NCBI GenBank assembly: GCA_944472155.2
Contig: OX235277.1
Span: forward strand, 35,350,804 to 35,414,803
DNA length: 64,000 nt
Reading direction: 5' to 3'
DNA from: Trichobilharzia szidati
Lineage: Eukaryota; Platyhelminthes; Trematoda; Strigeidida; Schistosomatidae
In this document: piece after piece, positions 1 to 54,708 of the stretch
Layout of the letters: each line of letters opens with the position of its first letter
How positions within the stretch are numbered: position 1 is the first letter of the stretch
Program-made: the position numbers and the translations under genes
The notes under the pieces: generated by a model
Databases searched by the model: none
What the model was told of the DNA's origin: nothing
The model's input: the letters and a program-made list of their open reading frames with translations, nothing else

Positions 1-392
1 CACAGTCGTCGTCGTCGAGTTCGTCACATGCACGATTGACATGGTAAGGCGGACCTCACGACAGTCGTAAGACACACAACTACTTCAATCCATGAGGGCC
101 ACAACCAATGAGTCACATGTCTTCCCAACTCATCCACTCAACATATGTGCGTGTGTGTGCGTGTGCGTGTGCGTGTGCCATTGTGGATTTCACTCTGACA
201 CTTTGAATGCGTGCATGACACCAGTGATTGTGAGTGTTGTCTGTAGTCAAGTGGTGTGCGCATTTCAGGGGTGATACTGGCTGTAGTACTGTGTGTTTGT
301 GCATGAATGTGTCTGTGTGTGTTTGTTTGTTTGTGTGTGGACAGTGGCCGGTGTTATGTACGGATTCGAGTGTGAGTGTGAAATATACTCAC

Positions 393-446
393 CTGACGAC
401 GCCGGTACGATTTCCTCCTCCTCGATTATCTCAGCCTTTGGGGATT
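393..446 (-). CDS. Acidic 18-residue repeat exon, copy 1 (54 bp)
   Basis: This is the reference copy of the repeated exon. Read on the minus strand, a pyrimidine-rich acceptor (CTTTCTTTTTCAG) precedes 54 bp, followed by the donor GTGAGTATA. The exon starts with two bases that complete a codon and ends with one base (phase 1-1), so any number of copies can be joined or skipped in frame. Joined copies encode ESPKAEIIEEEEIVPASS, with E1 formed across each junction. The segment is strongly acidic, low complexity and lacks cysteine. Length and symmetry resemble exons of schistosome micro-exon genes, although classical micro-exons are 36 bp or shorter. No biochemical function is assigned. The plus strand is also open here but lacks any such boundary signals. 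No transcript evidence was available. Confidence 0.7.
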
Positions 447-1278
447 CTGAAAAAGAAAGCAGTGTGGCAAGTGTAGTGAATGAGTCGGCAGCGTGTCAAT
501 CAATATACACTACACTCTTCCTCATCGTGACAACGGAGACGACGACAGGTGAATGAATGTCAATCCTGGCTGACATTTGTTGATGGCGATTTCGGCCGAG
601 ATGTGAGGTGTTGGCGAGTGATGATTCAGTGAGTATCATCGCCCACTCACATTTCATACAACAAACACGTACACTCGGAGAGATTTTGCATGTCGTGATC
701 GCTGTTACTTACATTGATCGCCAACTCACACTGGTGTCTCATCACTGCTAACGTCACTCCACGCATCAAATTCTGTCTCTCACGAACATCATCGAATTGC
801 ACGATGTCATTGTGAATGAAGTCTGTGCAAGTCTGTCGACTTCAGTCATGTGCGCACACACAAACCCACACACACACACAAACACACACAGTCGTCGTCG
901 TCGAGTTCGTCACATGCACGATTGACATGGTAAGGCGGACCTCACGACAGTCGTAAGACACACAACTACTTCAATCCATGAGGGCCACAACCAATGAGTC
1001 ACATGTCTTCCCAACTCATCCACTCAACATATGTGCGTGTGTGTGCGTGTGCGTGTGCGTGTGCCATTGTGGATTTCACTCTGACACTTTGAATGCGTGC
1101 ATGACACCAGTGATTGTGAGTGTTGTCTGTAGTCAAGTGGTGTGCGCATTTCAGGGGTGATACTGGCTGTAGTACTGTGTGTTTGTGCATGAATGTGTCT
1201 GTGTGTGTTTGTTTGTTTGTGTGTGGACAGTGGCCGGTGTTATGTACGGATTCGAGTGTGAGTGTGAAATATACTCAC

Positions 1279-1332
1279 CTGACGACGCCGGTACGATTTC
1301 CTCCTCCTCGATTATCTCAGCCTTTGGGGATT
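1279..1332 (-). CDS. Acidic 18-residue repeat exon, copy 2
   Basis: Same sequence and splice sites as copy 1, lying 886 bp from it. Confidence 0.7.
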
Positions 1333-2160
1333 CTGAAAAAGAAAGCAGTGTGGCAAGTGTAGTGAATGAGTCGGCAGCGTGTCAATCAATATACACTACA
1401 CTCTTCCTCATCGTGACAACGGAGACGACGACAGGTGAATGAATGTCAATCCTGGCTGACATTTGTTGATGGCGATTTCGGCCGAGATGTGAGGTGTTGG
1501 CGAGTGATGATTCAGTGAGTATGATCGCCCACTCACATTTCATACAACAAACACGTACACTCGGAGAGATTTTGCATGTTGTGATCGCTGTTACTTACAT
1601 TGATCGCCAACTCACACTGGTGTCTCATCACTGCTAACGTCACTCCACGCATCAAATTCTGTCTCTCACGAACATCATCGAATTGCACGATGTCATTGTG
1701 AATGAAGTCTGTGCAAGTCTGTCGACTTCAGTCATGTGCGCACTCACAAACCCACACACACACACAAACACACACAGTCGTCGTCGTCGAGTTCGTCACA
1801 TGCACGATTGACATGGTAAGGCGGACCTCACGACAGTCGTAAGACACACAACTACTTCAATCCATGAGGGCCACAACCAATGAGTCACATGTCTTCCCAA
1901 CTCATCCACTCAACATATGTGCGTGTGTGTGTGCGTGTGCGTGTGCCATTGTGGATTTCACTCTGACACTTTGAATGCGTGCATGACACCAGTGATTGTG
2001 AGTGTTGTCTGTAGTCAAGTGGTGTGCGCATTTCAGGGGTGATACTGGCTGTAGTACTGTGTGTTTGTGCATGAATGTGTCTGTGTGTGTTTGTTTGTTT
2101 GTGTGTGGACAGTGGCCGGTGTTATGTACGGATTCGAGTGTGAGTGTGAAATATACTCAC

Positions 2161-2214
2161 CTGACGACGCCGGTACGATTTCCTCCTCCTCGATTATCTC
2201 AGCCTTTGGGGATT
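2161..2214 (-). CDS. Acidic 18-residue repeat exon, copy 3
   Basis: Exon identical to copy 1. The adjoining minus-strand upstream intron carries a private change (caatggag instead of caacggag) that is shared with copies 5 and 9. Confidence 0.7.
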
Positions 2215-3042
2215 CTGAAAAAGAAAGCAGTGTGGCAAGTGTAGTGAATGAGTCGGCAGCGTGTCAATCAATATACACTACACTCTTCCTCATCGTGACA
2301 ATGGAGACGACGACAGGTGAATGAATGTCAATCCTGGCTGACATTTGTTGATGGCGATTTCGGCCGAGATGTGAGGTGTTGGCGAGTGATGATTCAGTGA
2401 GTATGATCGCCCACTCACATTTCATACAACAAACACGTACACTCGGAGAGATTTTGCATGTCGTGATCGCTGTTACTTACATTGATCGCCAACTCACACT
2501 GGTGTCTCATCACTGCTAACGTCACTCCACGCATCAAATTCTGTCTCTCACGAACATCATCGAATTGCACGATGTCATTGTGAATGAAGTCTGTGCAAGT
2601 CTGTCGACTTCAGTCATGTGCGCACACACAAACCCACACACACACACAAACACACACAGTCGTCGTCGTCGAGTTCGTCACATGCACGATTGACATGGTA
2701 AGGCGGACCTCACGACAGTCGTAAGACACACAACTACTTCAATCCATGAGGGCCACAACCAATGAGTCACATGTCTTCCCAACTCATCCACTCAACATAT
2801 GTGCGTGTGTGTGTGCGTGTGCGTGTGCCATTGTGGATTTCACTCTGACACTTTGAATGCGTGCATGACACCAGTGATTGTGAGTGTTGTCTGTAGTCAA
2901 GTGGTGTGCGCATTTCAGGGGTGATACTGGCTGTAGTACTGTGTGTTTGTGCATGAATGTGTCTGTGTGTGTTTGTTTGTTTGTGTGTGGACAGTGGCCG
3001 GTGTTATGTACGGATTCGAGTGTGAGTGTGAAATATACTCAC

Positions 3043-3096
3043 CTGACGACGCCGGTACGATTTCCTCCTCCTCGATTATCTCAGCCTTTGGGGATT
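3043..3096 (-). CDS. Acidic 18-residue repeat exon, copy 4
   Basis: Exon identical to copy 1. It is followed on the plus strand by a longer, 900-bp unit spacing. Confidence 0.7.
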
Positions 3097-3942
3097 CTGA
3101 AAAAGAAAGCAGTGTGGCAAGTGTAGTGAATGAGTCGGCAGCGTGTCAATCAATATACACTACACTCTTCCTCATCGTGACAACGGAGACGACGACAGGT
3201 GAATGAATGTCAATCCTGGCTGACATTTGTTGATGGCGATTTCGGCCGAGATGTGAGGTGTTGGCGAGTGATGATTCAGTGAGTATGATCGCCCACTCAC
3301 ATTTCATACAACAAACACGTACACTCGGAGAGATTTTGCATGTCGTGATCGCTGTTACTTACATTGATCGCCAACTCACACTGGTGTCTCATCACTGCTA
3401 ACGTCACTCCACGCATCAAATTCTGTCTCTCACGAACATCATCGAATTGCACGATGTCATTGTGAATGAAGTCTGTGCAAGTCTGTCGACTTCAGTCATG
3501 TGCGCACTCACAAACCCACACACACACACAAACACACACAGTCGTCGTCGTCGAGTTCGTCACATGCACGATTGACATGGTAAGGCGGACCTCACGACAG
3601 TCGTAAGACACACAACTACTTCAATCCATGAGGGCCACAACCAATGAGTCACATGTCTTCCCACCTCATCCACTCAACATATGTGCGTGTGTGTGTGCGT
3701 TTGTGTGTGCGTGTGCGTGTGCGTGTGCCATTGTGGATTTCACTCTGACACTTTGAATGCGTGCATGACACCAGTGATTGTGAGTGTTGTCTGTAGTCAA
3801 GTGGTGTGCGCATTTCAGGGGTGATACTGGCTGTAGTACTGTGTGTTTGTGCATGAATGTGTCTGTGTGTGTTTGTTTGTTTGTGTGTGGACAGTGGCCG
3901 GTGTTATGTACGGATTCGAGTGTGAGTGTGAAATATACTCAC

Positions 3943-3996
3943 CTGACGACGCCGGTACGATTTCCTCCTCCTCGATTATCTCAGCCTTTGGGGATT
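3943..3996 (-). CDS. Acidic 18-residue repeat exon, copy 5
   Basis: Exon identical to copy 1. It is the first member of a four-unit higher-order repeat that recurs from copy 9. The caatggag intron marker is present. Confidence 0.7.
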
Positions 3997-4824
3997 CTGA
4001 AAAAGAAAGCAGTGTGGCAAGTGTAGTGAATGAGTCGGCAGCGTGTCAATCAATATACACTACACTCTTCCTCATCGTGACAATGGAGACGACGACAGGT
4101 GAATGAATGTCAATCCTGGCTGACATTTGTTGATGGCGATTTCGGCCGAGATGTGAGGTGTTGGCGAGTGATGATTCAGTGAGTATGATCGCCCACTCAC
4201 ATTTCATACAACAAACACGTACACTCGGAGAGATTTTGCATGTCGTGATCGCTGTTACTTACATTGATCGCCAACTCACACTGGTGTCTCATCACTGCTA
4301 ACGTCACTCCACGCATCAAATTCTGTCTCTCACGAACATCATCGAATTGCACGATGTCATTGTGAATGAAGTCTGTGCAAGTCTGTCGACTTCAGTCATG
4401 TGCGCACACACAAACCCACACACACACACAAACACACACAGTCGTCGTCGTCGAGTTCGTCACATGCACGATTGACATGGTAAGGCGGACCTCACGACAG
4501 TCGTAAGACACACAACTACTTCAATCCATGAGGGCCACAACCAATGAGTCACATGTCTTCCCACCTCATCCACTCAACATATGTGCGTGTGTGTGTGCGT
4601 GTGCGTGTGCCATTGTGGATTTCACTCTGACACTTTGAATGCGTGCATGACACCAGTGATTGTGAGTGTTGTCTGTAGTCAAGTGGTGTGCGCATTTCAG
4701 GGGTGATACTGGCTGTAGTACTGTGTGTTTGTGCATGAATGTGTCTGTGTGTGTTTGTTTGTTTGTATGTGGACAGTGGCCGGTGTTATGTACGGATTCG
4801 AGTGTGAGTGTGAAATATACTCAC

Positions 4825-4878
4825 CTGACGACGCCGGTACGATTTCCTCCTCCTCGATTATCTCAGCCTTTGGGGATT
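4825..4878 (-). CDS. Acidic 18-residue repeat exon, copy 6
   Basis: Exon identical to copy 1. The flanking intron has TTTGTATGTGG instead of TTTGTGTGTGG, a marker shared only with copy 10. Confidence 0.7.
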
Positions 4879-5706
4879 CTGAAAAAGAAAGCAGTGTGGC
4901 AAGTGTAGTGAATGAGTCGGCAGCGTGTCAATCAATATACACTACACTCTTCCTCATCGTGACAACGGAGACGACGACAGGTGAATGAATGTCAATCCTG
5001 GCTGACATTTGTTGATGGCGATTTCGGCCGAGATGTGAGGTGTTGGCGAGTGATGATTCAGTGAGTATGATCGCCCACTCACATTTCATACAACAAACAC
5101 GTACACTCGGAGAGATTTTGCATGTCGTGATCGCTGTTACTTACATTGATCGCCAACTCACACTGGTGTCTCATCACTGCTAACGTCACTCCACGCATCA
5201 AATTCTGTCTCTCACGAACATCATCGAATTGCACGATGTCATTGTGAATGAAGTCTGTGCAAGTCTGTCGACTTCAGTCATGTGCGCACACACAAACCCA
5301 CACACACACACAAACACACACAGTCGTCGTCGTCGAGTTCGTCACATGCACGATTGACATGGTAAGGCGGACCTCACGACAGTCGTAAGACACACAACTA
5401 CTTCAATCCATGAGGGCCACAACCAATGAGTCACATGTCTTCCCACCTCATCCACTCAACATATGTGCGTGTGTGTGTGCGTGTGCGTGTGCCATTGTGG
5501 ATTTCACTCTGACACTTTGAATGCGTGCATGACACCAGTGATTGTGAGTGTTGTCTGTAGTCAAGTGGTGTGCGCATTTCAGGGGTGATACTGGCTGTAG
5601 TACTGTGTGTTTGTGCATGAATGTGTCTGTGTGTGTTTGTTTGTTTGTGTGTGGACAGTGGCCGGTGTTATGTACGGATTCGAGTGTGAGTGTGAAATAT
5701 ACTCAC

Positions 5707-5760
5707 CTGTCGACGCCGGTACGATTTCCTCCTCCTCGATTATCTCAGCCTTTGGGGATT
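5707..5760 (-). CDS. Acidic 18-residue repeat exon, copy 7 (S18T)
   Basis: One base differs from copy 1, changing the last residue from Ser to Thr (repeat ends PAST). The reading frame and both splice sites are kept. Copies 11, 12, 15 and 30 share this change. Confidence 0.7.
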
Positions 5761-6588
5761 CTGAAAAAGAAAGCAGTGTGGCAAGTGTAGTGAATGAGTC
5801 GGCAGCGTGTCAATCAATATACACTACACTCTTCCTCATCGTGACAACGGAGACGACGACAGGTGAATGAATGTCAATCCTGGCTGACATTTGTTGATGG
5901 CGATTTCGGCCGAGATGTGAGGTGTTGGCGAGTGATGATTCAGTGAGTATGATCGCCCACTCACATTTCATACAACAAACACGTACACTCGGAGAGATTT
6001 TGCATGTCGTGATCGCTGTTACTTACATTGATCGCCAACTCACACTGGTGTCTCATCACTGCTAACGTCACTCCACGCATCAAATTCTGTCTCTCACGAA
6101 CATCATCGAATTGCACGATGTCATTGTGAATGAAGTCTGTGCAAGTCTGTCGACTTCAGTCATGTGCGCACACACAAACCCACACACACACACAAACACA
6201 CACAGTCGTCGTCGTCGAGTTCGTCACATGCACGATTGACATGGTAAGGCGGACCTCACGACAGTCGTAAGACACACAACTACTTCAATCCATGAGGGCC
6301 ACAACCAATGAGTCACATGTCTTCCCAACTCATCCACTCAACATATGTGCGTGTGTGTGTGCGTGTGCGTGTGCCATTGTGGATTTCACTCTGACACTTT
6401 GAATGCGTGCATGACACCAGTGATTGTGAGTGTTGTCTGTAGTCAAGTGGTGTGCGCATTTCAGGGGTGATACTGGCTGTAGTACTGTGTGTTTGTGCAT
6501 GAATGTGTCTGTGTGTGTTTGTTTGTTTGTGTGTGGACAGTGGCCGGTGTTATGTACGGATTCGAGTGTGAGTGTGAAATATACTCAC

Positions 6589-6642
6589 CTGACGACGCCG
6601 GTACGATTTCCTCCTCCTCGATTATCTCAGCCTTTGGGGATT
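6589..6642 (-). CDS. Acidic 18-residue repeat exon, copy 8
   Basis: Exon identical to copy 1; last member of the first higher-order repeat. Confidence 0.7.
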
Positions 6643-7488
6643 CTGAAAAAGAAAGCAGTGTGGCAAGTGTAGTGAATGAGTCGGCAGCGTGTCAATCAAT
6701 ATACACTACACTCTTCCTCATCGTGACAACGGAGACGACGACAGGTGAATGAATGTCAATCCTGGCTGACATTTGTTGATGGCGATTTCGGCCGAGATGT
6801 GAGGTGTTGGCGAGTGATGATTCAGTGAGTATGATCGCCCACTCACATTTCATACAACAAACACGTACACTCGGAGAGATTTTGCATGTCGTGATCGCTG
6901 TTACTTACATTGATCGCCAACTCACACTGGTGTCTCATCACTGCTAACGTCACTCCACGCATCAAATTCTGTCTCTCACGAACATCATCGAATTGCACGA
7001 TGTCATTGTGAATGAAGTCTGTGCAAGTCTGTCGACTTCAGTCATGTGCGCACTCACAAACCCACACACACACACAAACACACACAGTCGTCGTCGTCGA
7101 GTTCGTCACATGCACGATTGACATGGTAAGGCGGACCTCACGACAGTCGTAAGACACACAACTACTTCAATCCATGAGGGCCACAACCAATGAGTCACAT
7201 GTCTTCCCACCTCATCCACTCAACATATGTGCGTGTGTGTGTGCGTTTGTGTGTGCGTGTGCGTGTGCGTGTGCCATTGTGGATTTCACTCTGACACTTT
7301 GAATGCGTGCATGACACCAGTGATTGTGAGTGTTGTCTGTAGTCAAGTGGTGTGCGCATTTCAGGGGTGATACTGGCTGTAGTACTGTGTGTTTGTGCAT
7401 GAATGTGTCTGTGTGTGTTTGTTTGTTTGTGTGTGGACAGTGGCCGGTGTTATGTACGGATTCGAGTGTGAGTGTGAAATATACTCAC

Positions 7489-7542
7489 CTGACGACGCCG
7501 GTACGATTTCCTCCTCCTCGATTATCTCAGCCTTTGGGGATT
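7489..7542 (-). CDS. Acidic 18-residue repeat exon, copy 9
   Basis: Exon identical to copy 1. The unit matches copy 5, lying 3,546 bp from it, including the caatggag marker and the extra GCGTTTGTGT block in the microsatellite. Confidence 0.7.
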
Positions 7543-8370
7543 CTGAAAAAGAAAGCAGTGTGGCAAGTGTAGTGAATGAGTCGGCAGCGTGTCAATCAAT
7601 ATACACTACACTCTTCCTCATCGTGACAATGGAGACGACGACAGGTGAATGAATGTCAATCCTGGCTGACATTTGTTGATGGCGATTTCGGCCGAGATGT
7701 GAGGTGTTGGCGAGTGATGATTCAGTGAGTATGATCGCCCACTCACATTTCATACAACAAACACGTACACTCGGAGAGATTTTGCATGTCGTGATCGCTG
7801 TTACTTACATTGATCGCCAACTCACACTGGTGTCTCATCACTGCTAACGTCACTCCACGCATCAAATTCTGTCTCTCACGAACATCATCGAATTGCACGA
7901 TGTCATTGTGAATGAAGTCTGTGCAAGTCTGTCGACTTCAGTCATGTGCGCACACACAAACCCACACACACACACAAACACACACAGTCGTCGTCGTCGA
8001 GTTCGTCACATGCACGATTGACATGGTAAGGCGGACCTCACGACAGTCGTAAGACACACAACTACTTCAATCCATGAGGGCCACAACCAATGAGTCACAT
8101 GTCTTCCCACCTCATCCACTCAACATATGTGCGTGTGTGTGTGCGTGTGCGTGTGCCATTGTGGATTTCACTCTGACACTTTGAATGCGTGCATGACACC
8201 AGTGATTGTGAGTGTTGTCTGTAGTCAAGTGGTGTGCGCATTTCAGGGGTGATACTGGCTGTAGTACTGTGTGTTTGTGCATGAATGTGTCTGTGTGTGT
8301 TTGTTTGTTTGTATGTGGACAGTGGCCGGTGTTATGTACGGATTCGAGTGTGAGTGTGAAATATACTCAC

Positions 8371-8424
8371 CTGACGACGCCGGTACGATTTCCTCCTCCT
8401 CGATTATCTCAGCCTTTGGGGATT
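8371..8424 (-). CDS. Acidic 18-residue repeat exon, copy 10
   Basis: Exon identical to copy 1. The unit matches copy 6 (shared TTTGTATGTGG marker), 3,546 bp away. Confidence 0.7.
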
Positions 8425-9246
8425 CTGAAAAAGAAAGCAGTGTGGCAAGTGTAGTGAATGAGTCGGCAGCGTGTCAATCAATATACACTACACTCTTCCT
8501 CATCGTGACAACGGAGACGACGACAGGTGAATGAATGTCAATCCTGGCTGACATTTGTTGATGGCGATTTCGGCCGAGATGTGAGGTGTTGGCGAGTGAT
8601 GATTCAGTGAGTATCATCGCCCACTCACATTTCATACAACAAACACGTACACTCGGAGAGATTTTGCATGTCGTGATCGCTGTTACTTACATTGATCGCC
8701 AACTCACACTGGTGTCTCATCACTGCTAACGTCACTCCACGCATCAAATTCTGTCTCTCACGAACATCATCGAATTGCACGATGTCATTGTGAATGAAGT
8801 CTGTGCAAGTCTGTCGACTTCAGTCATGTGCGCACACACAAACCCACACACACACACAAACACACACAGTCGTCGTCGTCGAGTTCGTCACATGCACGAT
8901 TGACATGGTAAGGCGGACCTCACGACAGTCGTAAGACACACAACTACTTCAATCCATGAGGGCCACAACCAATGAGTCACATGTCTTCCCACCTCATCCA
9001 CTCAACATATGTGCGTGTGTGTGTGCGTGTGCCATTGTGGATTTCACTCTGACACTTTGAATGCGTGCATGACACCAGTGATTGTGAGTGTTGTCTGTAG
9101 TCAAGTGGTGTGCGCATTTCAGGGGTGATACTGGCTGTAGTACTGTGTGTTTGTGCATGAATGTGTCTGTGTGTGTTTGTTTGTTTGTGTGTGGACAGTG
9201 GCCGGTGTTATGTACGGATTCGAGTGTGAGTGTGAAATATACTCAC

Positions 9247-9300
9247 CTGTCGACGCCGGTACGATTTCCTCCTCCTCGATTATCTCAGCCTTTGGGGATT
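9247..9300 (-). CDS. Acidic 18-residue repeat exon, copy 11 (S18T)
   Basis: Carries the Ser-to-Thr change of copy 7, which lies 3,540 bp away. It sits in one of two short 876-bp units. Confidence 0.7.
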
Positions 9301-10122
9301 CTGAAAAAGAAAGCAGTGTGGCAAGTGTAGTGAATGAGTCGGCAGCGTGTCAATCAATATACACTACACTCTTCCTCATCGTGACAACGGAGACGACGAC
9401 AGGTGAATGAATGTCAATCCTGGCTGACATTTGTTGATGGCGATTTCGGCCGAGATGTGAGGTGTTGGCGAGTGATGATTCAGTGAGTATGATCGCCCAC
9501 TCACATTTCATACAACAAACACGTACACTCGGAGAGATTTTGCATGTCGTGATCGCTGTTACTTACATTGATCGCCAACTCACACTGGTGTCTCATCACT
9601 GCTAACGTCACTCCACGCATCAAATTCTGTCTCTCACGAACATCATCGAATTGCACGATGTCATTGTGAATGAAGTCTGTGCAAGTCTGTCGACTTCAGT
9701 CATGTGCGCACACACAAACCCACACACACACACAAACACACACAGTCGTCGTCGTCGAGTTCGTCACATGCACGATTGACATGGTAAGGCGGACCTCACG
9801 ACAGTCGTAAGACACACAACTACTTCAATCCATGAGGGCCACAACCAATGAGTCACATGTCTTCCCACCTCATCCACTCAACATATGTGCGTGTGTGTGT
9901 GCGTGTGCCATTGTGGATTTCACTCTGACACTTTGAATGCGTGCATGACACCAGTGATTGTGAGTGTTGTCTGTAGTCAAGTGGTGTGCGCATTTCAGGG
10001 GTGATACTGGCTGTAGTACTGTGTGTTTGTGCATGAATGTGTCTGTGTGTGTTTGTTTGTTTGTGTGTGGACAGTGGCCGGTGTTATGTACGGATTCGAG
10101 TGTGAGTGTGAAATATACTCAC

Positions 10123-10176
10123 CTGTCGACGCCGGTACGATTTCCTCCTCCTCGATTATCTCAGCCTTTGGGGATT
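10123..10176 (-). CDS. Acidic 18-residue repeat exon, copy 12 (S18T)
   Basis: Same Ser-to-Thr exon as copy 11. The two adjacent units are nearly identical, which suggests a recent local duplication or conversion. Confidence 0.7.
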
Positions 10177-11022
10177 CTGAAAAAGAAAGCAGTGTGGCAA
10201 GTGTAGTGAATGAGTCGGCAGCGTGTCAATCAATATACACTACACTCTTCCTCATCGTGACAACGGAGACGACGACAGGTGAATGAATGTCAATCCTGGC
10301 TGACATTTGTTGATGGCGATTTCGGCCGAGATGTGAGGTGTTGGCGAGTGATGATTCAGTGAGTATCATCGCCCACTCACATTTCATACAACAAACACGT
10401 ACACTCGGAGAGATTTTGCATGTCGTGATCGCTGTTACTTACATTGATCGCCAACTCACACTGGTGTCTCATCACTGCTAACGTCACTCCACGCATCAAA
10501 TTCTGTCTCTCACGAACATCATCGAATTGCACGATGTCATTGTGAATGAAGTCTGTGCAAGTCTGTCGACTTCAGTCATGTGCGCACTCACAAAACCACA
10601 CACACACACAAACACACACAGTCGTCGTCGTCGAGTTCGTCACATGCACGATTGACATGGTAAGGCGGACCTCACGACAGTCGTAAGACACACAACTACT
10701 TCAATCCATGAGGGCCACAACCAATGAGTCACATGTCTTCCCACCTCATCCACTCAACATATGTGTGTGTGTGTGTGCGTTTGTGTGCGCGTGTGCGTGT
10801 GCGTGTGCCATTGTGGAATTCACTCTGACACTTTGAATGCGTGCATGACACCAGTGATTGTGAGTGTTGTCTGTAGTCAAGTGGTGTGCGCATTTCAGGG
10901 GTGATACTGGCTGTAGTACTGTGTGTTTGTGCATGAATGTGTCTGTGTGTGTTTGTTTGTTTGTGTGTGGACAGTGGCCGGTGTTATGTACGGAATCGAG
11001 TGTGAGTGTGAAATATACTCAC

Positions 11023-11076
11023 CTGACGACGCCGGTACGATTTCCTCCTCCTCGATTATCGCAGCCTTTGGGGATT
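11023..11076 (-). CDS. Acidic 18-residue repeat exon, copy 13 (E6A)
   Basis: One change replaces Glu6 with Ala (ESPKAAII...). The surrounding unit is the most divergent in array 1 and shares several changes with the lone unit at 46.8 kb: cggaatcgag, gtcggcggcg, caagcctg and gaggagttagcg. Confidence 0.7.
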
Positions 11077-11916
11077 CTGAAAAAGAAAGCAGTGTGGCAA
11101 GTGTAGTGAATGAGTCGGCGGCGTGTCAATCAATATACACTACACTCTTCCTCATCGTGACAACGGAGACGACGACAGGTGAATGAATGTCAAGCCTGGC
11201 TGACATTTGTTGATGGCGATTTCGGCCGAGATGTGAGGAGTTAGCGAGTGATGATTCAGTGAGTATGATCGCCCACTCACATTTCATACAACAAACACGT
11301 ACACTCGGAGAGATTTTGCATGTCGTGATCGCTGTTACTTACATTGATCGCCAACTCACACTGGTGTCTCATCACTGCTAACGTCACTCCACGCATCAAA
11401 TTCTGTCTCTCACGAACATCATCGAATTGCACGATGTCATTGTGAATGAAGTCTGTGCAAGTCTGTCGACTTCAGTCATGTGCGCACACACAAACCCACA
11501 CACACACACAAACACACACAGTCGTCGTCGTCGAGTTCGTCACATGCACGATTGACATGGTAAGGCGGACCTCACGACAGTCGTAAGACACACAACTACT
11601 TCAATCCATGAGGGCCACAACCAATGAGTCACATGTCTTCCCACCTCATCCACTCAACATATGTGCGTTTGTGTGTGCGTTTGTGTGTGCGTGTGCGTGT
11701 GCCATTGTGGATTTCACTCTGACACTTTGAATGCGTGCATGACACCAGTGATTGTGAGTGTTGTCTGTAGTCAAGTGGTGTGCGCATTTCAGGGGTGATA
11801 CTGGCTGTAGTACTGTGTGTTTGTGCATGAATGTGTCTGTGTGTGTTTGTTTGTTTGTGTGTGGACAGTGGCCGGTGTTATGTACGGATTCGAGTGTGAG
11901 TGTGAAATATACTCAC

Positions 11917-11970
11917 CTGACGACGCCGGTACGATTTCCTCCTCCTCGATTATCTCAGCCATTGGGGATT
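11917..11970 (-). CDS. Acidic 18-residue repeat exon, copy 14 (K4M)
   Basis: One change replaces Lys4, the only basic residue of the repeat, with Met (ESPMAEII...). The frame and splice sites are kept. Confidence 0.7.
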
Positions 11971-12816
11971 CTGAAAAAGAAAGCAGTGTGGCAAGTGTAG
12001 TGAATGAGTCGGCAGCGTGTCAATCAATATACACTACACTCTTCCTCATCGTGACAACGGAGACGACGACAGGTGAATGAATGTCAATCCTGGCTGACAT
12101 TTGTTGATGGCGATTTCGGCCGAGATGTGAGGTGTTGGCGAGTGATGATTCAGTGAGTATCATCGCCCACTCACATTTCATACAACAAACACGTACACTC
12201 GGAGAGATTTTGCATGTCGTGATCGCTGTTACTTACATTGATCGCCAACTCACACTGGTGTCTCATCACTGCTAACGTCACTCCACGCATCAAATTCTGT
12301 CTCTCACGAACATCATCGAATTGCACGATGTCATTGTGAATGAAGTCTGTGCAAGTCTGTCGACTTCAGTCATGTGCGCACACACAAACCCACACACACA
12401 CACAAACACACACAGTCGTCGTCGTCGAGTTCGTCACATGCACGATTGACATGGTAAGGCGGACCTCACGACAGTCGTAAGACACACAACTACTTCAATC
12501 CATGAGGGCCACAACCAATGAGTCACATGTCTTCCCACCTCATCCACTCAACATATGTGCGTTTGTGTGTGCGTTTGTGTGTGCGTGTGCGTGTGCGTGT
12601 GCCATTGTGGATTTCACTCTGACACTTTGAATGCGTGCATGACACCAGTGATTGTGAGTGTTGTCTGTAGTCAAGTGGTGTGCGCATTTCAGGGGTGATA
12701 CTGGCTGTAGTACTGTGTGTTTGTGCATGAATGTGTCTGTGTGTGTTTGTTTGTTTGTGTGTGGACAGTGGCCGGTGTTATGTACGTATTCGAGTGTGAG
12801 TGTGAAATATACTCAC

Positions 12817-12870
12817 CTGTCGACGCCGGTACGATTTCCTCCTCCTCGATTATCTCAGCCTTTGGGGATT
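12817..12870 (-). CDS. Acidic 18-residue repeat exon, copy 15 (S18T)
   Basis: Carries the Ser-to-Thr change. The downstream intron has a private change (tgtacgtattcg). Confidence 0.7.
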
Positions 12871-13698
12871 CTGAAAAAGAAAGCAGTGTGGCAAGTGTAG
12901 TGAATGAGTCGGCAGCGTGTCAATCAATATACACTACACTCTTCCTCATCGTGACAACGGAGACGACGACAGGTGAATGAATGTCAATCCTGGCTGACAT
13001 TTGTTGATGGCGATTTCGGCCGAGATGTGAGGTGTTGGCGAGTGATGATTCAGTGAGTATGATCGCCCACTCACATTTCATACAACAAACACGTACACTC
13101 GGAGAGATTTTGCATGTCGTGATCGCTGTTACTTACATTGATCGCCAACTCACACTGGTGTCTCATCACTGCTAACGTCACTCCACGCATCAAATTCTGT
13201 CTCTCACGAACATCATCGAATTGCACGATGTCATTGTGAATGAAGTCTGTGCAAATCTGTCGACTTCAGTCATGTGCGCACACACAAACCCACACACACA
13301 CACAAACACACACAGTCGTCGTCGTCGAGTTCGTCACATGCACGATTGACATGGTAAGGCGGACCTCACGACAGTCGTAAGACACACAACTACTTCAATC
13401 CATGAGGGCCACAACCAATGAGTCACATGTCTTCCCACCTCATCCACTCAACATATGTGCGTGTGTGTGTGCGTGTGCGTGTGCCATTGTGGATTTCACT
13501 CTGACACTTTGAATGCGTGCATGACACCAGTGATTGTGAGTGTTGTCTGTAGTCAAGTGGTGTGCGCATTTCAGGGGTGATACTGGCTGTAGTACTGTGT
13601 GTTTGTGCATGAATGTGTCTGTGTGTGTTTGTTTGTTTGTGTGTGGACAGTGGCCGGTGTTATGTACGGATTCGAGTGTGAGTGTGAAATATACTCAC

Positions 13699-13752
13699 CT
13701 GACGACGCCGGTACGATTTCCTCCTCCTCGATTATCTCAGCCTTTGGGGATT
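13699..13752 (-). CDS. Acidic 18-residue repeat exon, copy 16
   Basis: Exon identical to copy 1. Confidence 0.7.
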
Positions 13753-14580
13753 CTGAAAAAGAAAGCAGTGTGGCAAGTGTAGTGAATGAGTCGGCAGCGT
13801 GTCAATCAATATACACTACACTCTTCCTCATCGTGACAACGGAGACGACGACAGGTGAATGAATGTCAATCCTGGCTGACATTTGTTGATGGCGATTTCG
13901 GCCGAGATGTGAGGTGTTGGCGAGTGATGATTCAGTGAGTATCATCGCCCACTCACATTTCATACAACAAACACGTACACTCGGAGAGATTTTGCATGTC
14001 GTGATCGCTGTTACTTACATTGATCGCCAACTCACACTGGTGTCTCATCACTGCTAACGTCACTCCACGCATCAAATTCTGTCTCTCACGAACATCATCG
14101 AATTGCACGATGTCATTGTGAATGAAGTCTGTGCAAGTCTGTCGACTTCAGTCATGTGCGCACACACAAACCCACACACACACACAAACACACACAGTCG
14201 TCGTCGTCGAGTTCGTCACATGCACGATTGACATGGTAAGGCGGACCTCACGACAGTCGTAAGACACACAACTACTTCAATCCATGAGGGCCACAACCAA
14301 TGAGTCACATGTCTTCCCACCTCATCCACTCAACATATGTGCGTGTGTGTGTGCGTGTGCGTGTGCCATTGTGGATTTCACTCTGACACTTTGAATGCGT
14401 GCATGACACCAGTGATTGTGAGTGTTGTCTGTAGTCAAGTGGTGTGCGCATTTCAGGGGTGATACTGGCTGTAGTACTGTGTGTTTGTGCATGAATGTGT
14501 CTGTGTGTGTTTGTTTGTTTGTGTGTGGACAGTGGCCGGTGTTATGTACGGATTCGAGTGTGAGTGTGAAATATACTCAC

Positions 14581-14634
14581 CTGACGACGCCGGTACGATT
14601 TCCTCCTCCTCGATTATCTCAGCCTTTGGGGATT
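14581..14634 (-). CDS. Acidic 18-residue repeat exon, copy 17
   Basis: Exon identical to copy 1. On the minus strand it is the first repeat exon met after block 1. The unit ends near 14,866, where block sequence replaces the usual CA-rich part. Confidence 0.7.
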
Positions 14635-16305: not shown

Positions 16306-16554
16306 CTAGAGTCGGAAGAGAGAATCTTTCTTCATGGAGAACTGCCAAAATGATGACAACGTCCTTCGAGTTTCTTATTTTCGTAGGTACTGCACTTTCA
16401 ATAGGAACAATGGTCATTTCCAGAGATTCATCAGCTTGTCCTTCGAATATGATAACACTGTCACTGGGATGGCACGGAGAACCTTCCAACGTCCATTTCA
16501 CCAATTGATTTCTATTTGACAACGGTTCGAATTCAACCTTTGCAACTCTCGGAA
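16306..16554 (-). CDS. 249-bp symmetric exon, possible FN3-like fold (block 1)
   Basis: On the minus strand the acceptor TTTTCTTTTCTCTGTCAG precedes 249 bp (83 codons, phase 1-1) and the donor GTAACTG follows. The frame is open and reads like real protein. It begins PRVAKVEFEPLSNRNQ, then LVKWTLEG, SDSVIIFEG and DVVIILAVL, ending FSLPTLG. A P-x-V-x-x-V-x-F-x-P-L start, a Trp in the next strand and alternating hydrophobic strands recall a fibronectin type III or other beta-sandwich domain, but this is by eye only. There is one Cys. In minus-strand order it is the last confident exon of the block before the array of acidic repeat exons, and its phase matches theirs. Confidence 0.78.
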
Positions 16555-18759: not shown

Positions 18760-19032
18760 CTCGTTCGTATATCAGACTCCTCCTTGCCTCCTCATAGTGA
18801 CCAAAGTAGCCTGACGTCTTTGCAATTATATGATAATTTTCAGGTATGCATGATTGCCCAATTACATTGAATTCTGATTGATTAACCAAGGGGAGATCCA
18901 AAGTATCATCAAAGGCCCAGTCTACTTCCCGTTCCAAAATCAGCTTTGAAATGCCTTTCTCATCAAATCGATTCCATCCGAATACCAGGGAGTCTGTCTT
19001 CTCCTGAAGAAGCCTGAATGTTGTACGTTTCC
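18760..19032 (-). CDS. 273-bp symmetric exon, conserved domain of unknown family (block 1)
   Basis: This is the best-defined exon of the block. On the minus strand a TTTTTTCCAG acceptor leads into 273 bp (91 codons, phase 1-1) and the donor is GTGAGTAC. It encodes KRTTFRLLQEKTDSLVFGW, then NRFDEKGISKLILEREVDW, AFDDTLDLPLVNQSEFNVIG and QSCIPENYHIIAKTSGYFG. Trp and aromatic residues and NQS (a possible N-glycosylation site) fit a folded, possibly extracellular domain. The peptide is the same in all four blocks although the flanking introns differ. I do not recognise the family. Schistosome egg protein CP391S-like proteins are a guess from general memory only. Confidence 0.8.
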
Positions 19033-28342: not shown

Positions 28343-28396
28343 CTGACGACGCCGGTACGATTTCCTCCTCCTCGATTATCTCAGCCTTTGGGGATT
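28343..28396 (-). CDS. Acidic 18-residue repeat exon, copy 25
   Basis: Exon identical to copy 1. The unit is a B/A recombinant: type B to the left of the exon, type A to its right. Confidence 0.7.
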
Positions 28397-29190
28397 CTGA
28401 AAAAGAAAGCAGTGTGGCAAGTGTAGTGAATGAGTCGGCAGCGTGTCAATCAATATACACTACACTCTTCCTCATCGTGACAACGGAGACGACGACAGGT
28501 GAATGAATGTCAATCCTGGCTGACATTTGTTGATGGCGATTTCGGCCGAGATGTGAGGTGTTGGCGAGTGATGATTCAGTGAGTATGATCGCCCACTCAC
28601 ATTTCATACAACAAACACGTACACTCGGAGAGATTTTGCATGTCGTGATCGCTGTTACTTACATTGATCGCCAACTCACACTGGTGTCTCATCACTGCTA
28701 ACGTCACTCCACGCATCAAATTCTGTCTCTCAAGAACATCATCGAATTGCACGATGTCATTGTGAATGAAGTCTGTGCAAATCTGTCGACTTCAGTCATG
28801 TGCGCACACACAAACCCACACACACCCACAAACACACACAGTCGTCGTCGTCGAGTTCGTCACATGCACGATTGACATGGTAAGGCGGACCTCACGACAG
28901 TCGTAAGACACACAACTACTTCAATCCATGAGGGCCACAACCAATGAGTCACATGTCTTCCCACCTCATCCACTCAACATGTGGGCGTGTGTCATTGTGG
29001 ATTTCACTCTGACACTTTGAAGGCGTGCATGACACCAGTGATTGTGAGTGTTGTCTGTAGTCAAGTGGTGTGCGCATTTCAAGGATGATACAGGCTGGAG
29101 TACTGTGTGTTCGTGCATGAGTGTGTCTGTGTGTGTGTACAGTGACCGATGTTATGCACGGAATCGAGTGTGAGTGTGAAATATACTCAC

Positions 29191-29244
29191 CTGACGACGC
29201 CGGTACGATTTCCTCCTCCTCGATTATCTCAGCCTTTGGGGATT
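29191..29244 (-). CDS. Acidic 18-residue repeat exon, copy 26
   Basis: Exon identical to copy 1; type B unit, repeating copy 23 at 2,570 bp. Confidence 0.7.
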
Positions 29245-30064
29245 CTGAAAAAGAAAGCAGTGTGGCAAGTGTAGTGAATGAGTCGGCAGCGTGTAAATCA
29301 ATATACACTGCACTCTTCCTCATCATGACAACAGAGATGACGACAGGTGAATGAATGTCAAGCCTGGCTGACATTTGTTGATGGCGATTTCGGCCGAGAT
29401 GTGAGGTGTCGGCGAGTGATGATTCAGTGAGTATGATCGGCCACACACATTTCATACAACAAACACGTACACTCGGAGAGATTTTGCATGTCGTGATCGC
29501 TGTTACTTACATTGATCGCCAACTCACACTGGTGTCTCATCACTGCTAACGTCACTCCACGCATCAAATTCTGTCTCTCAAGAACATCATCGAATTGCAC
29601 GATGTCATTGTGAATGAAGTCTGTGCAAATCTGTCGACTTCAGTCATGTGCGCACACACAAACCCACACACACCCACAAACACACACAGTCGTCGTCGTC
29701 GAGTTCGTCACATGCACGATTGACATGGTAAGGCGGACCTCACGACAGTCGTAAGACACACAACTACTTCAATCCATGAGGGTCACAACCAATGAGTCAC
29801 ATGTCTTCCCACCTCATCCACTCAACATATGTGCGTGTGCGTGTGCCATTGTGGATTTCACTCTGACACTTTGAATGCGTGCATGACACCAGTGATTGTG
29901 AGTGTTGTCTGTAGTCAAGTGGTGTGCGCATTTCAGGGGTGATACTGGCTGTAGTACTGTGTGTTTGTGCATGAATGTGTCTGTGTGTGTTTGTTGGTTT
30001 GTGTGTGTGTGGACAGTGGCCGGTGTTATGTACGGATTCGAGTGTGAGTGTGAAATATACTCAC

Positions 30065-30118
30065 CTGACGACGCCGGTACGATTTCCTCCTCCTCGATTA
30101 TCTCAGCCTTTGGGGATT
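30065..30118 (-). CDS. Acidic 18-residue repeat exon, copy 27
   Basis: Exon identical to copy 1; repeats copy 24 at 2,570 bp. Confidence 0.7.
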
Positions 30119-30911
30119 CTGAAAAAGAAAGCAGTGTGGCAAGTGTAGTGAATGAGTCGGCAGCGTGTCAATCAATATACACTACACTCTTCCTCATCGT
30201 GACAACGGAGACGACGACAGGTGAATGAATGTCAATCCTGGCTGACATTTGTTGATGGCGATTTCGGCCGAGATGTGAGGTGTTGGCGAGTGATGATTCA
30301 GTGAGTATGATCGCCCACTCACATTTCATACAACAAACACGTACACTCGGAGAGATTTTGCATGTCGTGATCGCTGTTACTTACATTGATCGCCAACTCA
30401 CACTGGTGTCTCATCACTGCTAACGTCACTCCACGCATCAAATTCTGTCTCTCAAGAACATCATCGAATTGCACGATGTCATTGTGAATGAAGTCTGTGC
30501 AAATCTGTCGACTTCAGTCATGTGCGCACACACAAACCCACACACACCCACAAACACACACAGTCGTCGTCGTCGAGTTCGTCACATGCACGATTCACAT
30601 GGTAGGCAGACCTCACGACAGTCGGATGACCCTCAACAACTTCAATCCATGAGGGCCACAACCAATGAGTCACATGTCTTCCCACCTCATCCACTCAACA
30701 TGTGGGCGTGTGTCATTGTGGATTTCACTCTGACACTTTGAAGGCGTGCATGACACCAGTGATTGTGAGTGTTGTCTGTAGTCAAGTGGTGTGCGCATTT
30801 CAAGGATGATACAGGCTGGAGTACTGTGTGTTCGTGCATGAGTGTGTCTGTGTGTGTGTACAGTGACCGATGTTATGCACGGAATCGAGTGTGAGTGTGA
30901 AATATACTCAC

Positions 30912-30965
30912 CTGACGACGCCGGTACGATTTCCTCCTCCTCGATTATCTCAGCCTTTGGGGATT
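30912..30965 (-). CDS. Acidic 18-residue repeat exon, copy 28
   Basis: Exon identical to copy 1; repeats copy 25 at 2,569 bp. On the minus strand it is the first copy met after block 2. Confidence 0.7.
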
Positions 30966-32661: not shown

Positions 32662-32910
32662 CTAGAGTCGGCAGAGAGAATCTTTCTTCATGGAGAACTG
32701 CCAAAATGATGACAACGTCCTTCGAGTTTCTTATTTTCGTAGGTACTGCACTTTCAATAGGAACAATGGTCATTTCCAGAGATTCATCAGCTTGTCCTTC
32801 GAATATGATAACACTGTCACTGGGATGGCACGGAGAACCTTCCAACGTCCATTTCACCAATTGATTTCTATTTGACAACGGTTCGAATTCAACCTTTGCA
32901 ACTCTCGGAA
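32662..32910 (-). CDS. 249-bp symmetric exon, possible FN3-like fold (block 2)
   Basis: Same peptide and splice sites as the block 1 copy at 16,306-16,554. Confidence 0.78.
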
Positions 32911-35118: not shown

Positions 35119-35391
35119 CTCGTTCGTATATCAGACTCCTCCTTGCCTCCTCATAGTGACCAAAGTAGCCTGACGTCTTTGCAATTATATGATAATTTTC
35201 AGGTATGCATGATTGCCCAATTACATTGAATTCTGATTGATTAACCAAGGGGAGATCCAAAGTATCATCAAAGGCCCAGTCTACTTCCCGTTCCAAAATC
35301 AGCTTTGAAATGCCTTTCTCATCAAATCGATTCCATCCGAATACCAGGGAGTCTGTCTTCTCCTGAAGAAGCCTGAATGTTGTACGTTTCC
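35119..35391 (-). CDS. 273-bp symmetric exon (block 2)
   Basis: Peptide identical to the block 1 copy at 18,760-19,032. The acceptor side reads TTTTTTCCAG and the donor GTGAGTAC. Confidence 0.8.
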
Positions 35392-37495: not shown

Positions 37496-37564
37496 CTCTT
37501 TGTGCATTGCCTTCGAGATATTGAGGACTGAAACTGTCAACTCCCTGTTGTGCCAGTAGAGTGG
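37496..37564 (-). CDS. 69-bp symmetric exon (block 2)
   Basis: Sequence and splice sites identical to 21,126-21,194. Confidence 0.6.
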
Positions 37565-38385: not shown

Positions 38386-39000
38386 TACTTCAATCCATGA
38401 GGGCCACAACCAATGAGTCACATGTCTTCCCACCTCATCCACTCAACATATGTGCGTGTGCGTGTGCCATTGTGGATTTCACTCTGACACTTTGAAGGCG
38501 TGCATGACACCAGTGATTGTGAGTGTTGTCTGTAGTCAAGTGGTGTTCGCATTTCAGGGGTGATACTGGCTGTAGTACTGTGTGTTTGTGCATGAGTGAG
38601 TCTGTCTGTGTGTGTTCGTTTCCTTGTGAGTGTTTGTGTACAGTGACCGGTGTTATGCACCTAATCGAAAGCGAGTGTGAGTGTGTGTGTCTGGGAGTGT
38701 GAAATATACTCACTTGACGACGCCGGTACGATTTCCTCCTCCTCGATTATCTCAGCCTTTGGGGATTCTGAAAAAGAAAGCAGTGTGGCAAGTGTAGTGA
38801 GTGAGTCGGCGGCGTGTCAGTCAAAATGCACTACACTCTTCCTCATCGTGACAACAGAGATGACGACAGGTGAATGAATGTCAAGCCTGTCTGACATTTG
38901 TTGATGGCGATTTCGGCCGAGATGTGAGGTGTTGGCGAGTGATGATTCAGTGAGTATGATCGCCCACTCACATTTCATACAACAAACACGTACACTCGGA
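38386..39000. repeat. Single diverged tandem unit between blocks 2 and 3
   Basis: About 615 bp of the array unit, truncated before the CA-rich part. The microsatellite is short, and the stretch right of it has private insertions (cgaaagcgagtgtgagtgtgtgtgtctgg). Confidence 0.9.
38714..38767 (-). CDS. Acidic 18-residue repeat exon, copy 29 (altered donor)
   Basis: The last exon base is A instead of G, so the donor context becomes CAA|GTGAGT. Splicing to another 54-bp exon would then give Lys (AAA) instead of Glu (GAA) at the junction. The rest of the peptide is unchanged. Confidence 0.65.
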
Positions 39001-40462: not shown

Positions 40463-40711
40463 CTAGAGTCGGAAGAGAGAATCTTTCTTCATGGAGAACT
40501 GCCAAAATGATGACAACGTCCTTCGAGTTTCTTATTTTCGTAGGTACTGCACTTTCAATAGGAACAATGGTCATTTCCAGAGATTCATCAGCTTGTCCTT
40601 CGAATATGATAACACTGTCACTGGGATGGCACGGAGAACCTTCCAACGTCCATTTCACCAATTGATTTCTATTTGACAACGGTTCGAATTCAACCTTTGC
40701 AACTCTCGGAA
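40463..40711 (-). CDS. 249-bp symmetric exon, possible FN3-like fold (block 3)
   Basis: Peptide identical to the block 1 and 2 copies. Confidence 0.78.
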
Positions 40712-42919: not shown

Positions 42920-43192
42920 CTCGTTCGTATATCAGACTCCTCCTTGCCTCCTCATAGTGACCAAAGTAGCCTGACGTCTTTGCAATTATATGATAATTTT
43001 CAGGTATGCATGATTGCCCAATTACATTGAATTCTGATTGATTAACCAAGGGGAGATCCAAAGTATCATCAAAGGCCCAGTCTACTTCCCGTTCCAAAAT
43101 CAGCTTTGAAATGCCTTTCTCATCAAATCGATTCCATCCGAATACCAGGGAGTCTGTCTTCTCCTGAAGAAGCCTGAATGTTGTACGTTTCC
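42920..43192 (-). CDS. 273-bp symmetric exon (block 3)
   Basis: Peptide identical to the other three blocks. One base differs next to the acceptor (TTGATTTTTCCAG). Confidence 0.8.
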
Positions 43193-45468: not shown

Positions 45469-45537
45469 CTCTTTGTGCATTGCCTTCGAGATATTGAGGA
45501 CTGAAACTGTCAACTCCCTGTTGTGCCAGTAGAGTGG
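45469..45537 (-). CDS. 69-bp symmetric exon (block 3)
   Basis: Sequence and splice sites identical to the block 1 copy. Confidence 0.6.
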
Positions 45538-45811
45538 CTATTAAAGCAGACAAAAGCAATGCCTCACAATGTTCACAGTGACTAACGAGTTTCTAATTTC
45601 CATCGAAAATAATTCTTGAAATGTCACCACAAAGCATATAGGATAATGAATCAAATGCAACTGGATAGCCATTTCAAACAAGACGACCGTTATTGGTCAG
45701 CTTTCATTGCAGTCCGTTCTCAACTATTTCATCGTCTGGGAAGTGACCGATATCGTGTGTCTAGTGCTTGTGTTTATTCTCAATTGAACTCAATCATTCA
45801 AGTTGTCAATA

Positions 45812-45989
45812 TTTATTTTTTTATTTTATTTTTGGTTACAGCTTGATGCCACATGGTATTTTCAGTACAAGTATGGCATTTTCAGCCCAATTTTCGCAGG
45901 CCGTCCATAGATATCGGGTGTGCGTCGGCAGGGGATCGAACTCCGGACCATGTGCATGGTCGGCGAGAGTCCCAACCACTGTGCCACCG
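45812..45989 (-). mobile_element. tRNA-derived SINE, minus orientation
   Basis: Inserted in the sequence gtcaatatgcgttgg that is uninterrupted in the other blocks. Read on the minus strand it has the full tRNA-like head (CGGTGGCACAGTGGTTGGG, A-box-like), the B-box GAGTTCGATCC, the body, and a tail of A/T-rich repeats. It has split the SEIRLAVEFQR frame. Confidence 0.85.
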
Positions 45990-46098
45990 ATGCGTTGGAA
46001 CTCTACAGCAAGGCGAATCTCACTCCCTAGATACAATTCATGTCTCATTTGAGGCTTGAGCTCGCGTCAGTAGCCCATTCCACAGTCAATCACCTTAC

Positions 46099-46170
46099 CA
46101 ATCAGCAATTCGGGCTCACGATTGACATTCTCTAAGAGACTACTCGATGTATTCAGATGCAATGTGACAT
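46099..46170 (-). CDS. 72-bp symmetric exon (block 3)
   Basis: Phase 1-1. The middle reads SSLLENVNRE. The upstream 99-bp alternative is closed by TAA as in block 2. Confidence 0.6.
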
Positions 46171-46509
46171 CTAGGTGCAAAGCTTACAACCGATTGTCTG
46201 CGTCCACCTCAGAGAAGAAACTATGAGGCGTCTAAACTTGCACACCCAGGAGTCAGTCGAAGCAGGCAGTTGAGGTTAATGCTCATCTGGAAGTGTTAAT
46301 ACTGTCTTTCGCCACATCCGAGTATAAAACTCAGATATTAGTTTACGGGTATGAATGTGCTTCGGAATATTTAAATTCACAAGGAAAAATACAGTATAGA
46401 ACCATCCTATAATCAATACCTAATTTGAAAATACGTTCATCGCGAGAACTCAATACCATACAACATCGTGACCACTATCAGCGAACACAAGAATAACAAG
46501 GAAAGGCCG

Positions 46510-47092
46510 ACGTCACGACAGTCGGATGACCCTCAACTACTTCAATCCATGAGCGCCACAACCAATGAGTCACATGTCTTCCCACCTCATCCACTCAACA
46601 TATGTGCGTGTGTGTGCGTCATTGTGGATTTCACTCTGACACTTTGAAGGCGTGCATGACACCAGTGATTGTGAGTGTTGTCTGTAGTCAAGTGGTGTGC
46701 ATATTTCAGGGTGGAGTACTGTGTGTTTGTGAATGAATGTGTCTGTGTGTGTGGACAGTGACCGGTGTTATGCACGGAATCGAGTGTGAGTGTGAAATAT
46801 ACTCACCTGTCGACGCCGGTACGATTTCCTCCTCCTCGATTATCGCAGCCTTTGGGGATTCTGAAAAAGAAAGCAGTGTGGCAAGTGTAGTGAATGAGTC
46901 GGCGGCGTGTCAATCAATATACACTACACTCTTCCTCATCGTGACAACAGAGATGACGACAGGTGAATGAATGTCAAGCCTGTCTGACATTTGTTGATGG
47001 CGATTTCGGCCGAGATGTGAGGAGTTAGCGAGTGATGATTCAGTGAGTATCATCGCCCACTCACATTTCATACAACAAACACGTACACTCGG
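46510..47092. repeat. Single diverged tandem unit between blocks 3 and 4
   Basis: About 580 bp of the array unit, lacking the CA-rich part. It shares markers with the unit of copy 13 in array 1 (gtcggcggcg, gaggagttagcg, attatcgcagcc), although the two are 36 kb apart. Confidence 0.9.
46807..46860 (-). CDS. Acidic 18-residue repeat exon, copy 30 (E6A, S18T)
   Basis: Combines the two changes found singly in array 1 (copy 13 and copies 7/11/12/15). The splice sites are intact. Confidence 0.7.
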
Positions 47093-54700: not shown

Positions 54701-54708
54701 CCAACGCC

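Follow-up and report, generated by a model that had tools for sequence, protein, structure and literature searches.

The polymorphic mucins of Schistosoma mansoni (SmPoMuc) form a small multigene family whose members carry a signal peptide and a variable number of repeats, and for which concerted evolution has been proposed. As published, the 5' part of these genes holds genomic repeats of 1,022-1,037 bp, each with a 27-bp exon and introns, which are over 93-94% identical and have dinucleotide microsatellites between them; up to ~20 genomic repeats occur per gene, and transcripts carry 1-100 repeats (PMC2576457). A second described system is that of the schistosome micro-exon genes (MEGs), in which exons measure 6-81 bp, most of them 15 bp (the abstract gives 3-81; PMC10526429). 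Here we analysed a locus of the bird schistosome Trichobilharzia szidati, read on the minus strand of a 64,000-nucleotide stretch (C7:35350804-35414803, hereafter the window), in which a 54-bp exon recurs within five tandem modules. We interpret it, with a probability of roughly 0.62, as a single protein-coding gene with one signal-peptide exon and five internal modules, in which a cassette together with its introns was amplified to 11, 27 and 23 copies; the family was confined to Trichobilharzia in the searches made.

The likeness to SmPoMuc lies in near-identical repeats of ~1 kb around a short exon, here units of ~880 bp around an exon of 54 bp. In the mucins, as described, a 9-residue repeat directly follows the signal peptide, whereas here 18 acidic residues come after exon 2 and two larger exons, X and Y. 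The SmPoMuc product is a secreted mucin whose repeat has at most ~20 genomic copies, whereas here there are up to 27 copies per array and several paralogues are membrane-anchored. Whole multi-exon modules are duplicated here as well, a second level at which the locus differs from the published account of SmPoMuc. The mucin genes are also described as carrying a hammerhead ribozyme in an intron, whereas Rfam, run at gathering scores, gave 0 matches in the window, which does not include the 3' part of the gene. With MEGs, as they have been described, the locus shares short exons between long introns, alternative inclusion (here in gene models) and, on the reading of exon 1, a putative secretion signal. 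MEG coding sequence lies chiefly in very short exons, whereas here the exons are 49, 69, 273, 249 and 54 bp long and one short exon is present 63 times. The locus parallels SmPoMuc, the nearer precedent of the two: the principle is the same, in what would be a different protein family. A first-pass annotation of the window, made from its letters, had drawn the comparison with MEGs. This was sound at the level of a schistosome family and loose as regards MEGs themselves, given the 249- and 273-bp exons, the membrane anchors and the closer precedent of SmPoMuc.

Organization of the locus

Comparison of the window with itself revealed four tandem blocks of ~7-8 kb each, which carry further coding exons besides the arrays. 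Exon 2, X and Y were recognised from an alignment of these four blocks and from runs of invariant sites. In the left flank of the window, array A is completed by 10 extra copies and is followed by a fifth module (E) and then by 23 copies. Each of the five tandem modules consists of a 69-bp exon 2, a 273-bp X, a 249-bp Y and n copies of the 54-bp exon, with the 54-bp cassette last (Table 1). In transcription order the copy numbers are 1 (module D), 1 (C), 11 (B), 27 (A) and 23 (E), for a total of 63. Exon 2, X and Y start and end in phase 1, and all repeated exons are symmetric 1-1. X is identical across all five modules, and Y is present as three haplotypes in the five. The arrays reported in the first-pass annotation are real, but they are separated by modules of 7-8 kb with three extra coding exons each. 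Their assigned span of 1..47092 was too small: the first array leaves the left edge of the window, the 23-copy module lies beyond it, and the 5' exon lies at 53635-53683.

A pattern search of the whole assembly (1.114 Gb, 907 contigs), allowing up to 3 mismatches, returned 64 matches to the 54-bp exon, all on C7. Of these, 63 fall in the locus and one is a 3-mismatch relative inside the neighbouring paralogue L024; the reversed-sequence control of the same search gave 0 matches. Homologues diverged beyond 3 mismatches are present in other paralogues. Within the window, a search that tolerated as many as 16 mismatches gave 30 minus-strand copies, as had been annotated, and 0 on the plus strand. 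All 30 are in phase 1-1 with an identical acceptor (...CTTTCTTTTTCAG, a pyrimidine-rich CAG) and donor (GTGAGTATAT). By reading, the exon is open in phase 1 only, the other two frames hitting stops, and it encodes the acidic 18-residue peptide ESPKAEIIEEEEIVPASS. Twenty-two copies equal the reference sequence; the other eight comprise four S-to-T changes, one E-to-A, one K-to-M, one G-to-A at the last base and one double change. In the window part of array A, three non-reference haplotypes (T, A and M) occupy 6 of 17 copies, rather than the four haplotypes first listed. Within arrays, the exons in the window are spaced 847-900 bp apart, and the ~880-bp units include TG/CA-rich microsatellite stretches.

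The earlier statement that no copy is frameshifted extends to the entire locus: the 20-bp acceptor side and the 10-bp donor are the same in all 63, and no copy is frame-damaged. Because the copies are near-identical recent duplicates, the 30 open frames in the window are not 30 independent proofs of coding. Judged by sequence comparison, the more independent evidence of coding is the presence of diverged homologous exons in the paralogues.

One start exon and a gene model that runs through the modules

Exon 1, with a start codon and a hydrophobic leader that by reading resembles a signal peptide, has a single match in the window. It was not matched for blocks A, B and C, nor for E outside the window. 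Immediately upstream of it stand the TATA-like sequences ATATAAATA/TATATAAAAA. Among 11 paralogue loci (L015-L025, stretches of ~10 kb), nine have a match to exon 2, and in 9/9 of these an exon 1 is found upstream. The GT donor of the paralogue exon 1 is intact in 8/9 and lost in L025; the public model P0007 joins exons of L024 to exons of L025 and bypasses this donor-less exon 1.

The public protein P0011, an unnamed 661-residue T. szidati sequence, can be assembled letter for letter and in order from exon 1 and 11 downstream exons. Its first part reads exon 1, X(D), the 54-bp exon of D, exon 2 and X of C, and exon 2 and X of B; the remainder reads X(A), one 54-bp copy, and exon 2, X and Y of E, after which the protein stops two residues into the following intron. 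As neither X nor exon 2 differs between modules, these exons were assigned to particular modules by their order and by distinctive 54-bp variants, the second of which is also found in array E. P0011 is a public gene model, and the splice evidence at the locus consists of such models alone. For P0011, three Pfam matches that exceed the curated cut-off (DUF7349, ToxB_N, DUF2239) were set aside, as 0 stretches pass on their own and the scores sum weak matches over repeats. The idea of one huge modular gene, proposed in the first-pass annotation, is supported by five modules behind one signal-peptide exon, by cassettes that are all 1-1 and by P0011 running through the modules.

Constraint on the coding segments and divergence of the modules

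Across modules A-D, exon 2, X and Y together vary at 3/591 sites, compared with 392/5979 other ungapped sites, a class that includes 48 columns of the 54-bp exon (Fisher p = 5e-13). In array B, 0/54 exon sites are variable against 60/511 flanking sites (Fisher p = 0.004, a test that ignores relatedness and boundary units). Paralogue homologues of the 54-bp exon retain its 54-bp length, phase and ag/gt borders. For the rates of non-synonymous (dN) and synonymous (dS) substitution, the 54-bp exon of the window gave dN 0.35 and dS 1.69 against L015, a comparison with only ~13 synonymous sites, and 3/3 changes against L024a were non-synonymous. Between the window and paralogues dN/dS lies below 1, with values from 0.118/0.219 to 0.149/0.203 for X and from 0.155/0.372 to 0.189/0.305 for Y. 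In some close paralogue pairs non-synonymous change exceeds synonymous change (for Y of L015 and L017, dN 0.056 and dS 0.009).

Over 7,011 bp, modules A and E share 99.87% identity; array A has 27 units and array E 23, and both begin with the variant series S S T M A T T S S S. Module B is 97.1% identical to A over the module, while C and D match A in pieces at ~91-97%. Among the 63 aligned units, 26 have an identical twin. The likeness of A and E shows what would be either a recent large duplication with later gain or loss of units, or two haplotypes misplaced in tandem. It had been suggested that copy number could differ between individuals. Arrays of 27 and 23 units on near-identical modules lend this indirect support: the difference in number lies inside one assembly, or between two misplaced haplotypes, and not between individuals.

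The X-Y family

The locus has the layout of a family of proteins (P0001-P0011) that we call the X-Y family: a signal exon, exon 2, X, Y and acidic cassettes, with the repeated exons in phase 1-1. X matches at least 20 places on C7, and the membrane-anchor exon of the family matches at least 11 places, 10 on C7 and one on C372. A C-terminal anchor with a YFSYRR-W/C-CKQK tail is present in P0001, P0002, P0004, P0005, P0007 and P0008, and several paralogues are single-pass membrane proteins. P0001 and P0002 differ solely by the 18 residues of the homologue of the 54-bp exon. The same repeated X-Y-acidic modules within one protein, as at the studied locus, are seen in the two-module T. szidati proteins P0007 and P0008 and in P0006 of T. 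regenti, which has three. The models of these three proteins differ from the locus in having no 54-bp array; P0007 and P0008 end in an anchor and short tail, whereas P0006 does not. The downstream stalk of the P0007 gene contains further symmetric cassettes of 48, 54 and 60 bp. As a separate observation, cassettes of this stalk (SEAAV..., the 54-bp ESPQTSK and the 60-bp GSR...) recur at L032 6585-9324 in the order of L025, which makes a further small duplication of symmetric exons.

Homology searches returned 5, 10 and 4 proteins, all from Trichobilharzia and all unnamed or uncharacterized. In these searches a candidate was scored only if it had short exact words in common with the query, and two of them scored no more than ~8,000 candidates; with such a filter, the restriction to Trichobilharzia leaves room for occurrence in other taxa. 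No published description of the family was found among the titles and abstract openings of the top-ranked papers in the literature (for example 15 of 35, 12 of 6,076 and 6 of 7). X and Y gave no Pfam match at E values up to 1, no credible Pfam match was obtained in 7 full-length family proteins, and a Protein Data Bank (PDB) sequence search with profile A2 returned no match. A resemblance of X and Y to fibronectin type III and immunoglobulin-like proteins was seen by eye only and serves as a lead. A titin-like spring, considered from the exon pattern, was dropped in view of the signal peptide and membrane anchor of the paralogues.

Alternative explanations

Several observations weigh against the interpretation of the locus as one gene with a functional, amplified cassette. 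P0011 uses only 2 of the 63 copies of the 54-bp exon, and it lacks Y from four of the five modules and exon 2 from two. Across modules A-D, 3/54 sites of the 54-bp exon are variable, near the non-coding rate, and by reading every change in it is non-synonymous. Its diversity within arrays (0.0086 in A, 0.0088 in E) is above that of the downstream intron (0.0024, 0.0025), though the upstream intron is more diverse still (0.0112, 0.0139), and the introns contain runs of 32-37 bp that match the exon itself in invariance. Finally, a tblastn search with known stalk and anchor pieces over 35256901-35315107 found no convincing 3' exon in the ~58 kb that separate the last array from the next module gene; the best anchor match there (E 0.031) lies in L027 and is interrupted by a stop. 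The gene would accordingly end before an anchor and encode a secreted protein, have an unrecognised 3' exon, or continue into L024/L025.

The last of these options can be carried further. Among the matches listed for the minus strand from 34.99 to 35.41 Mb, four anchors are each preceded by one X, whereas seven X exons precede the anchor at 35173945, namely the five of the studied locus and those of L024 and L025. Among the same matches this is the nearest same-strand anchor (35173945-35174040); it lies beyond modules L024 and L025, at a distance of 230,542 bp from exon 1. It is possible, if rather doubtful, that the window forms the 5' part of a ~230-kb, seven-module transcription unit comprising the five modules, L024 and L025, with two start exons and a shared anchor exon at C7:35173945. 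From the upstream start, giant forms with as many as 63 acidic spacers, either secreted or in the membrane, might then arise, and from the L024 start a short anchored form. Array length would act as a fast-changing dial of the reach of a surface protein, like that of SmPoMuc, separately evolved and operating on the two levels of module and cassette, and the donor-less start of L025 would be the record of an earlier fusion.

The rival to be taken seriously is passive amplification, in which unequal crossing-over spread the ~880-bp unit in the manner of an intronic satellite and carried the exon along, most copies being skipped and one or two spacers reaching the mature protein. The sparse use of the exon in P0011, its near-non-coding rate of change with no synonymous change seen, and its diversity in arrays A and E relative to the downstream intron, though not to the upstream one, would all be expected on this account, as would the microsatellite stretches and the many units with an identical twin. 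Against it stand the acceptor side, donor and frame kept in 63/63 copies, the invariant exon of array B amid variable flanks (with the stated limits of that test) and the single-copy state of the cassette in modules C and D. We regard passive amplification as a substantial possibility, while leaning away from it. An error of assembly is a good deal less probable: A and E with their arrays could be two haplotypes that were joined in tandem, or the arrays could have been collapsed or expanded. Near-identity over 7,011 bp and a shared unit order are what alleles would display. However, B, C and D differ from A by ~3-5% in long pieces and by 9% in one piece of C, and on this divergence they are unlikely to be alleles of A; C7 is a contig of 72 Mb with no N in the window or in L009-L012; and even with E removed, 40 copies remain.

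Membership in the MEGs is improbable. The signal-peptide exon, the short symmetric exons of 48-69 bp, the long introns and the exon skipping in gene models speak for it, but the 249- and 273-bp exons hold the bulk of the unique coding sequence, and a membrane anchor is present in several paralogues. That no MEG-named protein appeared among the matches counts weakly, the matches being unnamed or uncharacterized and the search word-based. Very improbable indeed is a set of five tandem genes transcribed separately. Tandem paralogous genes do exist nearby on the same chromosome, but exon 1 with its TATA-like upstream sequence stands alone, the blocks meet in introns with no exon 1 and no anchor exon found between modules, and P0011 crosses from module to module.

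If the locus is indeed a single gene with amplified cassettes, internal duplication of modules would have been frame-neutral, and we infer that the frame was kept since all junctions fall between introns of phase 1. Unequal crossing-over among units of ~880 bp could keep the arrays near-uniform while altering their length, and splicing could include any subset of cassettes in frame. The ectodomain would consist of up to five X-Y heads separated by acidic spacers of 18n residues; use of all exons from exon 1 through the last array gives 2,135 residues. The product may be a surface protein, secreted or anchored in the membrane, with variable reach, charge and repeat number.

Features in and around the modules

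Table 1. Exons of the locus within the window, in transcription order (positions are those of the window)
Feature	Position	Strand	Remark
Exon 1 (49 nt, ending in phase 1) with start codon and signal-peptide-like MLLEVQVKWYLLAFIS	53635..53683	-	begins public protein P0011
Module D exon 2, 69 bp, 1-1	52699..52767	-	
Module D exon X, 273 bp, 1-1, 91 aa	50983..51255	-	
Module D exon Y, 249 bp, 1-1, 83 aa	48523..48771	-	
Module D 54-bp exon, one copy (ESPKAAIIEEEEIVPAST)	46807..46860	-	contained in P0011
Module C exon 2	45469..45537	-	module alignment
Module C exon X	42920..43192	-	module alignment
Module C exon Y	40463..40711	-	module alignment
Module C 54-bp exon, one copy	38714..38767	-	54-bp pattern search
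Module B exon 2	37496..37564	-	module alignment
Module B exon X	35119..35391	-	module alignment
Module B exon Y	32662..32910	-	module alignment
Module B array, 11 identical 54-bp exons, spaced 847-874 bp	22322..30965	-	
Module A exon 2	21126..21194	-	module alignment
Module A exon X	18760..19032	-	module alignment
Module A exon Y	16306..16554	-	module alignment
Module A array, window part, 17 copies (27 in total), spaced 876-900 bp	393..14634	-	

The ~150 bp upstream of exon 2 (21195-21345 in module A, and likewise in B, C and D) are nearly invariant between modules; over A 21112-21345, exon 2 included, one site is variable in 234 aligned columns. In several paralogues this intron stretch carries a conserved open frame (KLVSHC...), and it is possibly an alternative 5' extension or a splicing element. 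The reading of this frame (KLVSHC...ALLLSAL) as a signal-peptide exon or trans-splice start was dropped, as the public models and exon 1 put the start of coding at a later acceptor. The intron between exon 2 and X contains inverted repeats of 206-245 bp with ~96-97% identity in modules A, B and C (arms 19305-19549/20051-20295, 35664-35908/36410-36654 and 43676-43881/44383-44588), and in module D the arms abut (51528-51857). If folded in the pre-mRNA, these repeats could affect exon skipping. The intron between X and Y of modules A, B and C holds antisense open reading frames (ORFs) on the plus strand, at 17601-18392 (264 aa), 34140-34748 (203 aa) and 41941-42312 (124 aa), which by eye resemble the end of a retroelement protein.

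Upstream of exon 1, the interval 54658-62360 contains retroelement remains: the plus strand has endonuclease-like ORFs and ORFs for a reverse transcriptase at 56492-58672, and the minus strand has RVT_1 ORFs at 60759-62360; in two of the four retroelement ORFs the best match falls just under the Pfam cut-off. The RVT_1 ORFs at 57.6-58.7 and 60.8-62.4 kb were rejected as parts of the gene, as they look like retroelements. Just downstream of the last array, at ~1350-2417 of L012, lies an inverted repeat in which ~1.07 kb is self-complementary at 93.8% identity, and which is probably a mobile element. A tRNA scan and PDB sequence searches gave nothing useful.

Implications for schistosomatid biology

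Blood flukes diversify host-exposed proteins with few genes, and SmPoMuc demonstrates that a repeated exon array can do so in one species. The locus described here adds a second exon array, in another genus and what would be a different protein family, and in an assembly that allows the full array to be counted. Its layout would let the worm alter the length of a surface or secreted protein through splicing or copy number. Two questions become testable with it: whether exon arrays are recurrent in schistosomatids, and how splicing proceeds among dozens of near-identical exons.

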